Shown here: piece by piece, positions 32,287 to 39,239 of the stretch
Numbering within the stretch: the stretch's first letter is position 1
Layout: every line of letters begins with the position of its first letter
NCBI GenBank assembly: GCA_903821365.1
Contig: CAIJKY010000007.1
Location: forward strand, 1 to 52,608
DNA: 52,608 nucleotides
Source of the DNA: an uncultured bacterium
GTDB taxonomy: Bacteria > Patescibacteriota > Saccharimonadia > Saccharimonadales > Saccharimonadaceae
Direction: 5' to 3'
Notes under the pieces: generated by a model
What the model was told of the DNA's origin: nothing
Database searches by the model: none
The model's input: the letters and a program-made list of their open reading frames with translations, nothing else
Position numbers and translations under genes: made by a program

Positions 32287-33315
32287 TTAATTTTTGCGTG
32301 CCAACACCTCTATTAATACCTTTATCTCAGCCTCAACTTCTAACTTATCTTCGTTCGGATCTCTATAGCAAACACATAGTCTATACAAATCATTCTCTAC
32401 TGGATTGTTGAGAGCCATATTAGTCGCACCGCTTTCATCCGCTCCGTGTAGTGTCGAGTAACGATGCACGAACTCGGTAGTCGTGATGGCGCCTTTGGCG
32501 TACGTGTCTATCAAATCTTGGGCGAAGTGCTCACGGTGAGGCGCACTTTCTTGGTTGAGAGGGGGCAGTTTTACTCCAATGTCGTTTCTGAGGTCTTGAG
32601 CCATAGAGGCTAGTGTGACGTCGTCGATGCTGTCAGGGGTCTTATTTAAGTCTTCTCGTAGGTAGATGTATTCTTGTAGGTCGAAGCCAATGCCTCTTTT
32701 AAATCTATCCTCTGATAAATCAAGGAGACCGCACAATGAGAGCGCTAAAGCTCTCAGCAGTTCAAGTTGTTTAGAATCATCTTCTTGCTCGGCGATATCA
32801 AGAATAATCTCTGCTATGTCAATTAATCTATCGTCACGTAGTTCGTCTTTTATCATTGGGGATTTCATAAGTTTTTGCTGGCCACCATCTTTGCGATCAT
32901 AGAAAGTAAGGCCGAAACTATAAAGATCTACATTCTGATTAGGCGTGACACGCAGCAAAGCATAATGATTGTAGCCATCATCATAGGCGATGGCTTGGTA
33001 ATACTCCCAGTCTTCATCAGATTCATTAACACTATGATTCTTGAATGTATCAGGGGGCAATAACTTTACGCCGCCCTCTTCTTGATATGCGAGCAAGGTA
33101 TGCCAGCCTTTAACGTGGACAGGAAAAGACTGCTGAATATCTTTTATCACCGATACTATGTCAAAGTGATCAGTCTCGACAACAACAAGCCAGTCGTCGC
33201 CAACAGCGTATAGGTAGAGGTAGTAGTCTGGCGTATGGACGTCAACTGCGAGAGGTATTTGACGTTTATCTAAAATATCGGCTGAGAAGTAGTGTTTAAG
33301 TGTGTCACAAGTCAT
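32287..33315 (-). CDS. Unknown 342-residue cytoplasmic protein; central domain duplicated in the next gene upstream
   Basis: I do not recognise this family. It starts at ATG 33315, only six bases after a TATAGT hexamer (33322-33327), so it is probably leaderless. The protein is acidic and without signal or membrane helix. It reads as an N-terminal alpha/beta part (~1-145, with YLYLYAVGDDWLVVVE), a helical middle (~150-250, with RDDRLIDIAEIILDIAEQEDD) and a C-terminal part with YRLCVCYRDPNED. The middle is shared with the 33343 protein, and 113 bases of DNA are identical. The acidic, modular design and truncated neighbour are reminiscent of polymorphic-toxin immunity genes, but that is only an inference. 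Confidence 0.6.
   Translation of the reverse strand: MTCDTLKHYFSADILDKRQIPLAVDVHTPDYYLYLYAVGDDWLVVVETDHFDIVSVIKDIQQSFPVHVKGWHTLLAYQEEGGVKLLPPDTFKNHSVNESDEDWEYYQAIAYDDGYNHYALLRVTPNQNVDLYSFGLTFYDRKDGGQQKLMKSPMIKDELRDDRLIDIAEIILDIAEQEDDSKQLELLRALALSLCGLLDLSEDRFKRGIGFDLQEYIYLREDLNKTPDSIDDVTLASMAQDLRNDIGVKLPPLNQESAPHREHFAQDLIDTYAKGAITTTEFVHRYSTLHGADESGATNMALNNPVENDLYRLCVCYRDPNEDKLEVEAEIKVLIEVLARKN
32750..32862 (-). repeat. Perfect 113-bp direct repeat, copy 1
   Basis: This stretch is identical to 33530-33642 (offset 780 bases). It encodes the SPMIKDELRDDRLIDIAEIILD-type segment of the 342-residue protein. Sequence diverges sharply on both sides (32749 and 32863), which suggests gene conversion or very recent duplication. 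Confidence 0.95.
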
Positions 33316-33342: not shown

Positions 33343-33666
33343 TTATTCTTTTGGACCAATAGAATCCCTAATGGACTGTGCCCAGTCAGCAAGAGTTGCA
33401 TCATCAATACTATCTGGGGTTTTGTTTAATCCTTGTCTTAAGTAGACATACTCTTGTAGATTAAATCCGATATTATGATTTAGTTTGTCGTCTGAGGTGT
33501 ATAGTAATTTTGCCAATGAAATGGCTAGCGCTCTCAGCAGTTCAAGTTGTTTAGAATCATCTTCTTGCTCGGCGATATCAAGAATAATCTCTGCTATGTC
33601 AATTAATCTATCGTCACGTAGTTCGTCTTTTATCATTGGGGACTCGTTAGGCTTGTGGGTTTCCAT
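33343..33666 (-). CDS. Short paralogue (107 residues) of the middle domain of the 32287 gene
   Basis: The protein begins METHKPNESPMIKDELRDD and aligns with about residues 148-255 of the downstream 342-residue protein, ending NKTPDSIDDATLADWAQSIRDSIG. The first ~40 residues after the start are encoded by DNA identical to the paralogue; the rest has diverged with conservative changes (LALSLCGLL versus LAISLAKLL). It has its own promoter: TTGTTC (33697-33702), 18-base spacer, TAGAAT (33673-33678), then six bases to the ATG, so probably leaderless. It is either a functional stand-alone domain or the remnant of a longer copy. The frame is intact, which argues against a dead fragment. Confidence 0.6.
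   Translation of the reverse strand: METHKPNESPMIKDELRDDRLIDIAEIILDIAEQEDDSKQLELLRALAISLAKLLYTSDDKLNHNIGFNLQEYVYLRQGLNKTPDSIDDATLADWAQSIRDSIGPKE
33530..33642 (-). repeat. Perfect 113-bp direct repeat, copy 2
   Basis: Identical to 32750-32862, and located inside the 107-residue paralogue. See copy 1. Confidence 0.95.
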
Positions 33667-34309: not shown

Positions 34310-34385
<76 letters not shown>

Positions 34386-34427: not shown

Positions 34428-35852
34428 CTACTGTGCGCTCGTCCCTTGCAGCTCCAGCGAGCCGCCACTGCCATCACCGGTCGCCCCAGGAACCACATCA
34501 TCGATCTTCTTAGCGCCGTCAGGAGTGTTGATTGTTAGTGACTTACCGTAGTTGGTGTAATCGACGACAATTGTTAGATCGTCTTGGTCAATTTCCATAC
34601 GCATTGGCAGTTTTGTCAGTTTATCAACATAAAAGGCAAAGCCATCAACCGACGTCAAGATGCTACTGTTAAGCACTTGCGAGTTAAACAACTGATTATA
34701 TTCTTGCAGCTTCTCTTTCTTGACGTTCACATCATAACGATACGCTTCATGGCCTTGAAAACTCATCGTCTTTGCCGAAGCAATCGAATAAACACCCTGC
34801 GCATTGTTGAAATTGATAAGTGCTTTCTGCTTTGCGTCGTCGATATTACCAAATAAGAGAATGCCATTAACACTGCCCATGGTTGCGAGTTGTAACGGGT
34901 TGAGCAAAATCAATGTTGAAAGCGGCAAATCACTAGAGCCTTCATTTGTGATAAGCCATTTGCCCTTTACCTCAGCGAGGAGTGTTTGACCAGCTTGATC
35001 AATGCCCTTCTTAGTGCCACTAACGTTTTCATCAGTAAACTCATCGAGCTTAATATATTGCTTGTCAGAGCTCATCAACACAAATTCACCTTTGCGATTC
35101 GAGACGACATCGTTGGCCAGCTGGCTAATCTCCATGGTACCTGAGGCTTTTGGCACATCGGCGTTTGTTGCGTCGACGTCGGTAGTATAGACGGCGCGGA
35201 TGGCCGAATTGCCAATTTTACGATCAAGTGTGAATGTTTGGCGATAATATTTAACGTCCATGGCGTTTGATAACGCACTAGCAAACACCGCTCGCGGTTC
35301 GTTGGCTGGGCCAAACCAAAAGAAATAGCCACCAACGCCACTGACCAGGATCAGGGCGCCCGCAATAATAAGTGTCAGCTTTTTATTAAGCTTTGCAAAG
35401 ATCGATTTCTTAGCAGCTACATCCGCTGGCCGTGTCCGTGGACGTAAGACGCGCTGAGGCGCCGGGAACACGATGCTTGGTGTTGACTGCAACGTACCAC
35501 TTGGCATGCGTGCATACGCAGCTGGCGCCCCAAACACTGGCGGAGCTCCAGGAATAATTGGTGCAGTCCCTGGTATAGCATTGGTGCCCGAAACATTGCG
35601 ATTCGCAATTGGTTGCACGGGAGTTGTCGATGGAATAGCGCCGAATGTCGGGAGAACCGGTAACTTCGGCAGTGCAGGTAATGTGGATTTTGGACGAGGC
35701 GTGCGTATAGGCGCAGCGGCAGGCTTTGGCGACCACGAATTAGCAACCGGCGGCACCGATGAACGAGGCGCGGCCTGTGGCTGCGGCAACGGCTGCGGTT
35801 GCGCGGGCTGAGCTGGTGTTGATGGTAGATCCAGCGTAAAACGTGGAGGCAT
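34428..35852 (-). CDS. Membrane-anchored LppX/LolA-like protein with long Pro-rich cytoplasmic N-terminus
   Basis: The 474-residue protein has ~150 cytoplasmic residues rich in Pro, Ala and Gln (for example PAQPAQPQPLPQPQAAPRSS), a basic patch, one membrane helix (LTLIIAGALILVSGVGGYFFWF, ~160-180) and an external domain. That domain starts PRAVFASALSNAMDVKYYRQTFTLDRK and alternates strands through GKWLITNEGSSDLPLSTLILL to MRMEIDQDDLTIVVDYTNYG, close to the LolA/LppX-type half-barrel pattern. It shares its plan with the protein at 27888 and is probably a distant paralogue. A candidate structured RNA lies just upstream (35884-36009) and may be its leader. AAGGGAAG precedes ATG 35852. Function unknown. 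Confidence 0.6.
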   Translation of the reverse strand: MPPRFTLDLPSTPAQPAQPQPLPQPQAAPRSSVPPVANSWSPKPAAAPIRTPRPKSTLPALPKLPVLPTFGAIPSTTPVQPIANRNVSGTNAIPGTAPIIPGAPPVFGAPAAYARMPSGTLQSTPSIVFPAPQRVLRPRTRPADVAAKKSIFAKLNKKLTLIIAGALILVSGVGGYFFWFGPANEPRAVFASALSNAMDVKYYRQTFTLDRKIGNSAIRAVYTTDVDATNADVPKASGTMEISQLANDVVSNRKGEFVLMSSDKQYIKLDEFTDENVSGTKKGIDQAGQTLLAEVKGKWLITNEGSSDLPLSTLILLNPLQLATMGSVNGILLFGNIDDAKQKALINFNNAQGVYSIASAKTMSFQGHEAYRYDVNVKKEKLQEYNQLFNSQVLNSSILTSVDGFAFYVDKLTKLPMRMEIDQDDLTIVVDYTNYGKSLTINTPDGAKKIDDVVPGATGDGSGGSLELQGTSAQ

Positions 35853-35883: not shown

Positions 35884-36009
35884 ATGGGCAGCTCGTGCGC
35901 GCCCACCCGGCTCTTCAAGTTTGTTTTTTGCTAAGTGTTTATTTTTCGCGCCAGACAAGCGAAGAGCCTATTGACTACCGTTTTTCGGGAAGTCTTGAGC
36001 GCACGAGCT
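35884..36009 (-). ncRNA. Candidate structured RNA (three-way junction), small RNA or leader of the 34428 gene
   Basis: The 223-base gap between ligA and the 34428 gene holds nested helices. P1 is an 11-bp perfect helix joining 35890-35900 with 35999-36009. Inside it are P2 (8 bp perfect, 35909-35916 with 35961-35968) and hairpin P3 (35973-35994: GACT/AGTC and CCG/CGG around a five-base loop). A fourth short hairpin (35884-35889 with 35901-35906) needs a G:U pair that exists only on the minus strand and is followed by TTTT, so the RNA is probably made from the minus strand. A possible promoter (TTGCCA at 36047-36042, 17-base spacer, AATCAT at 36024-36019) would start it right at P1. I do not recognise it as tmRNA, 4.5S, 6S or RNase P RNA. 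Confidence 0.55.
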
Positions 36010-36075
36010 AACATGCTTATGATTGCACAGTTGACACCATCTGGCAAGACCGTTCCAATGAACAAGACGGGTTAT

Positions 36076-39239
<3,164 letters not shown>

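Follow-up and report, generated by a model that had tools for sequence, protein, structure and literature searches.

In the window (the whole stretch of 52,608 nucleotides that was analysed), the genes follow one another in the order ligA, RNA, a gene designated the 34428 gene, and tRNA-Ala (Table 1). No gene-like open reading frame (ORF) crosses the gap that contains the RNA, ligA ending at 36076 and the next gene starting at 35852, both on the minus strand. The gap is thus free of genes, as an earlier reading made from the letters alone (the sequence-only reading) had stated, and the helix coordinates given in that reading are exact both in the window sequence and in the predicted centroid fold. 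Positions 35890–35900 (agctcgtgcgc) are the exact reverse complement of 35999–36009 (helix P1, 11 bp), positions 35909–35916 (ggctcttc) are the exact reverse complement of 35961–35968 (helix P2, 8 bp), and a hairpin (P3) is seen at 35973–35994. The 124-nt minus-strand RNA (35888–36011) has a minimum free energy of -45.4 kcal/mol, against -32.3 ± 3.5 in dinucleotide shuffles (z = -3.8; 0 of 200 shuffles as good), and its centroid fold consists of exactly P1, P2, and P3.

Table 1. Features of the RNA locus, in window coordinates
Feature	Position	Strand	Basis
ligA, conserved upstream neighbour	36076..38103	-	Pfam NAD-dependent DNA ligase domains
34428 gene, downstream, 474 aa, no Pfam family	34428..35852	-	ORF
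tRNA-Ala(GGC), conserved downstream neighbour	34310..34385	-	tRNA call
Whole predicted RNA gene core, P1 to P1 with short flanks	35884..36011	-	covariance models (CMs) R1, R2, and R3 match 35888-36011 minus; fold z
Promoter-like site TTGCCA-17-AATCAT	36019..36047	-	9/12 over two hexamers
P1 5' strand (AGCUCGUGCGC)	35999..36009	-	perfect 11 bp with 35890-35900; covariation
P3 hairpin (GACUUCCCGAAAAACGGUAGUC), genus-specific insert	35973..35994	-	in L002; absent from L003, L006
P2 5' strand (GAAGAGCC on plus strand; GGCUCUUC in RNA)	35961..35968	-	perfect 8 bp with 35909-35916; permutation test
A-rich apical loop (AAAAAUAAACACUUAGCAAAAAACAAA), AAAYAAA-type motif twice	35920..35947	-	motif kept in homologues
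P2 3' strand (GAAGAGCC in RNA)	35909..35916	-	pairs with 35961-35968
Invariant junction strand GGGUGGGC	35901..35908	-	GGUGGGC in 119/119 homologues
P1 3' strand (GCGCACGAGCU)	35890..35900	-	pairs with 35999-36009

Two further ORFs of the window (32287–33315 and 33343–33666) form a tandem partial duplication, in which the short ORF (33343–33666) repeats part of its neighbour's C-terminal half almost letter-for-letter; the longer protein of the pair has no Pfam family.

Base pairing and conserved segments

The primary evidence for pairing is an alignment-free test in which one sequence was taken from each of 22 families and the partners were permuted. Complementarity was 18.9 for P2 (13.0 ± 0.7 permuted) and 23.7 for P1 (20.8 ± 0.4 permuted), values reached by 0 of 20000 permutations in each case. 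P2 was tested in this way and with a structure-guided alignment because MAFFT alignments misplace it. The structure-guided alignment of 89 sequences contains two-sided changes in 16 of 16 modelled P1 and P2 pairs, and 195 two-sided cells against 58.5 in shuffled data (0/500); since such an alignment leans towards its model, the permutation test takes precedence. An alignment fitted to P1 only gave 110 two-sided cells for that helix against 41 shuffled (0/500). The covariation check proposed in the sequence-only reading therefore finds compensatory changes in both helices. The P2 variants include GGCUCUUC/GAAGAGCC, GCGGCG/CGCCGC, GGGGUAC/GUGCCCC, GCGACUUUA/UAAAGUCGC, and AAGGGCU/AGCCCUU; taken alone, P2 has a mean pairing probability of 0.53, a moderate predicted thermodynamic support.

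Two segments are conserved in sequence. The strand GGUGGGC lies between the 3' halves of P2 and P1 in all 119 homologues, with a G before it in 113 and a spacer of 0–3 nt to P2; its mean unpaired probability is 0.43 across homologues and 0.68 in the window. The A-rich apical loop carries motifs of the form AAAAYAAAMA; an AAYAAA-type motif is present in 115/119 homologues, mostly twice, with a mean unpaired probability of 0.86. Core length across homologues ranges from 70 to 143 nt (median 83).

The sequence-only reading had described a three-way junction, which does not hold as a general feature because P3 is missing from most relatives (L003 and L006 among them) while P1, P2, GGUGGGC, and the A-rich loop are kept. 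P3 is found only in the window's genus, that is, in the window and in its congener (locus L002), where the sequence differs and self-complementarity is retained. Family f1 (e.g., L006, L028, L032, and L037) has a covarying 5' hairpin, such as GCAUAGG...CCUAUGC, that overlaps the 5' strands of P1 and P2; it might belong to a pseudoknot or represent a folding intermediate. The signal for this hairpin is significant within f1 (0/20000) and lacking across families (3266/20000), so the idea that P1/P2 and the hairpin form a bistable switch in all homologues was rejected, and the switch is regarded as clade-specific. Inspection by eye of f31-like homologues (e.g., L103, L115, and L125) revealed a possible alternative 3' hairpin, CCACCCG-NNG-CGGGUGG, that would compete with P2 and is limited to that clade.

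Distribution and genomic neighbourhood

BLASTN detected copies in the congener (L002), together with weak matches in further genera and families (L003, L005, and L006); these homologues have the minus-strand motif CCGGGUGGGCGCG in common. A count of this 13-mer over the 247 genomes of the order gave 58 carriers, each with a single copy, against 3 for the reversed pattern used as a control. When read individually, the sites display one recurring layout with the exception of four chance matches in coding sequence; pattern matches at L004, L009, L014, L033, and L055 were judged to be chance. A covariance model built on P1 only (R1) located the element in 189/247 genomes of the order, nearly always as one copy, a count that is a lower bound because strict filters were used; among good-quality genomes of the order the figure was 161/192. 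One genome scored negative by R1 (G072) does carry a copy beside ligA, with P1 and P2 altered and still paired.

Applied to the whole phylum, the final model (R3) returned 31 matches within the order and three weak ones outside it (G527, G582, and G499); these three were discarded, because two fall within what appears to be coding sequence and one does not have the architecture. The same search gave no confident match elsewhere in the phylum and no element in five other members of the class. A stricter pattern, run against 84,980 named species genomes, matched 63 records, all of which were confirmed by R3 (63/63); their titles name Saccharibacteria, Saccharimonadia, TM7, Patescibacteria, or uncultured bacterium, and the complete chromosome of TM7i (CP075337.1) is included. 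The RNA is restricted to the order Saccharimonadales (Saccharibacteria/TM7), with no confident match elsewhere in the phylum.

The ligA cluster lies 5' of the RNA on the same strand in 44/96 loci, which represent most of the sampled families, and tRNA-Ala (nearly always GGC) lies 3' of it, in either orientation, in 60/96 loci and upstream in none; a gene similar to the 34428 gene adjoins the RNA in 21/96. The succession ligA, RNA, tRNA-Ala(GGC) looks like an ancient neighbourhood. In two genomes (G046, locus L230, and G088, locus L231) tRNA-Ala comes immediately after ligA and the RNA is missing between them; these apparent losses indicate that the RNA is dispensable in some lineages. A third genome (G050) has a reduced copy (L235:3572-3607) located 59 nt after ligA, in which a 10-bp P1-like hairpin presents AUGGGUGGGC. 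This copy has neither P2 nor the A-rich loop and retains only P1 and GGGUGGGC, which suggests, without proving, that the functional heart of the RNA may be the GGGUGGGC strand mounted on P1.

Taken as a whole, the comparative evidence establishes a discrete, predicted RNA gene that is base-paired, single-copy, and present across the order.

Transcription signals and the proposed cis-acting role

The best -35/-10 score averages 9.1/12 over 119 upstream regions, and a sigma-70-type promoter scoring at least 9/12 is present in 63% of them, against 13% in shuffles. At the better-scoring sites the -10 element ends mostly 7–10 nt 5' of P1, so the predicted transcription start falls at about P1, in agreement with the start proposed by the sequence-only reading. 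The promoter itself is better supported in relatives, which have strong sites at the corresponding position, than in the window, whose own site is mediocre (9/12, TTGCCA-17-AATCAT); the promoters of the window and its congener are both weaker than those of most relatives. The GCAATCATAAGC stretch of this site is common to the window and L006, and nearly so in L002. A hairpin followed by a T-run lies close 3' of P1 in 98/119 homologues, against 26% in shuffled sequence. Because most copies have a promoter and a terminator of their own, the element is predicted to be a stand-alone RNA gene. Terminator scans found no separate terminator downstream of P1 in the window's genome (G000) or in the congener (G001, locus L002).

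The sequence-only reading had P1 competing with an overlapping terminator hairpin, after the manner of a riboswitch or attenuator; the gene under control would be the one downstream. Such a hairpin (GGGC...GCCC-AUUUU over P1) can indeed be drawn in the window; it has 4 bp and an 11-nt loop, was missed by the terminator scans, and is weaker in the congener. In these two genomes the next gene begins 35–42 nt past the RNA, an arrangement that would suit control in cis. The wider sample argues otherwise, since the relatives' terminators stand clear of P1 and the downstream feature differs from locus to locus, being one of various genes or tRNA-Ala on either strand; the nearest downstream ORF, with ORFs called mechanically, is on the opposite strand in 23/95 loci. 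Whereas a riboswitch would be expected at a fixed place in the leader of one gene type, the conserved neighbour here is the upstream ligA, and the competing terminator and antiterminator that an attenuator would conserve can be drawn in the window's genus only. The cis-acting reading thus fails for the family and is very unlikely; an attenuator specific to this genus is conceivable, because G000 and G001 lack a separate terminator and have a gene 35–42 nt on.

Relation to known RNAs and candidate function

The sequence-only reading knew no standard small RNA with this layout, and none emerged from Rfam: covariance model searches with Rfam 15 placed no family over the RNA in the window (E up to 10) or at 34 homologous loci. 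Together with the fold and the compensatory changes, this upholds the assignment of an unassigned structured RNA to the minus strand. Open-access full-text literature on non-coding or structured RNAs in Saccharibacteria or CPR bacteria yielded nothing relevant. The RNA machinery was surveyed in 12 Saccharibacteria genomes (that of the window and 11 relatives). tmRNA (RF00023) was found in 12/12, 11 of them above cut-off (G000:C1:41350-41760 in the window's genome), and RNase P RNA (RF00010) in 11/12 (G000:C1:37034-37444). Both are likewise order-wide structured RNAs of these genomes, but neither has any similarity to the element, and their identity with it was rejected because they are encoded as separate genes elsewhere. 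No SRP RNA, small (RF00169) or large (RF01854), was found in any of the 12 genomes, nor was the Ffh M domain (PF02978; 0/12, controls 14/14); SRP appears to have been lost in this order (12 Saccharibacteria tested, controls positive), and papers on Parcubacteria (PMC4508563) and on many CPR bacteria (PMC8080830) report its absence. Neither 6S RNA (RF00013) above cut-off nor Hfq was found in the 12 genomes.

These results bear on several other identities. With a universal RNA seemingly missing, the element might be an SRP RNA diverged beyond Rfam, and it resembles the small SRP RNA in size (about 100 nt), single copy, and lineage-wide spread; the partner Ffh is missing as well, the published absences agree, the domain IV motifs do not occur in the element, and there is no CM match. 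The absence of Ffh from the genomes tested and the lack of a CM match refute this identity, to which we give practically no weight. It is extremely improbable that the element is a DNA-level inverted repeat, a mobile element, or a terminator instead of an RNA gene. REP-like elements and terminators are typically long inverted repeats too, but the element is single-copy at a syntenic site, has an upstream promoter and long invariant single-strand motifs, and gives strand-asymmetric model scores (e.g., 87.9 versus 21.5 bits at L098).

The most concrete alternative, although a distinctly unlikely one, is a functional analogue of 6S RNA that would bind RNA polymerase holoenzyme and regulate transcription. 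Both are single-copy, stand-alone RNAs of housekeeping type, in which a long-range helix closes off an internal loop; the element has its own promoter, and the role would be vacant in the 12 genomes. The element differs in having an invariant GGUGGGC strand and much shorter helices (under about 20 bp of helix in all) with an A-rich apical loop, where 6S RNA is a long rod with a central bubble; moreover, there is no match to RF00013, nothing resembling a pRNA start site is seen, and these bacteria may have no 6S function at all. One sub-threshold 6S RNA match was recorded in the congener (G001:C2:918320-918473; 28.8 bits, E 3e-4). A base-pairing small RNA, with GGUGGGC or the A-rich loop as the seed against mRNAs or tRNA 3' ends, is unlikely, if a little easier to entertain. 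The G-rich strand is predicted to be partly unpaired, and GGUGG is complementary to the CCACC found at many tRNA 3' ends, that of the adjoining tRNA-Ala among them; against this, mRNA seeds are not usually invariant throughout an order, and Hfq was not found. Pairing of the whole GGUGGGC strand with tRNA 3' ends was rejected because the full complement, GCCCACC, is conserved in none of the tRNAs seen, and dependence on Hfq, suggested by the A-rich motif, was likewise dropped, as 12/12 genomes gave no Hfq.

The interpretation that we favour, with a probability of about 0.8, is that the element represents a small, structured RNA gene of Saccharimonadales, stand-alone and not described before, encoding a trans-acting ribonucleoprotein (RNP) RNA of housekeeping type with docking strands. 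The RNA would be transcribed constitutively and would act in trans; P1 and P2 would fix the geometry of the GGUGGGC strand and the A-rich loop, which most likely are presented as docking sites to a conserved partner, either a protein or a structured RNA (rRNA, for example). We infer this docking from conservation: a conserved partner is favoured over changing mRNA targets because the unpaired strand is invariant across the whole order. The product would be a housekeeping-type ribonucleoprotein and not a regulator of the adjoining gene. A more specific proposal is tentative, namely that the RNA forms the core of a hitherto unrecognised Saccharibacteria housekeeping RNP distinct from RNase P, tmRNA, SRP, and 6S, which binds a conserved protein or the ribosome through GGUGGGC and the A-rich loop and arose in an SRP-less lineage. 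Novelty is claimed here for the RNA family, whose function could still prove analogous to that of a known kind.

The element is found in about 80% or more of the members of an order whose bacteria are reduced and host-dependent (tiny parasites), oral TM7 and TM7i included, and would rank among the most conserved non-coding genes of Saccharibacteria genomes, yet it has no Rfam family. The locus, the invariant motif, and the covariance model each give something concrete to test, and the element could shed light on the organisation of transcription or translation in minimal CPR cells that have no SRP.

T-box leaders contain the antiterminator motif GGGUGGNACCGCG, and, as in the element, a GGGUGG stretch lies beside GC-rich helix strands. 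The element differs from them: it lacks stem I and a specifier, is not followed by a tRNA-synthetase or amino-acid gene, and matches no Rfam family; the similarity is short and probably a coincidence.
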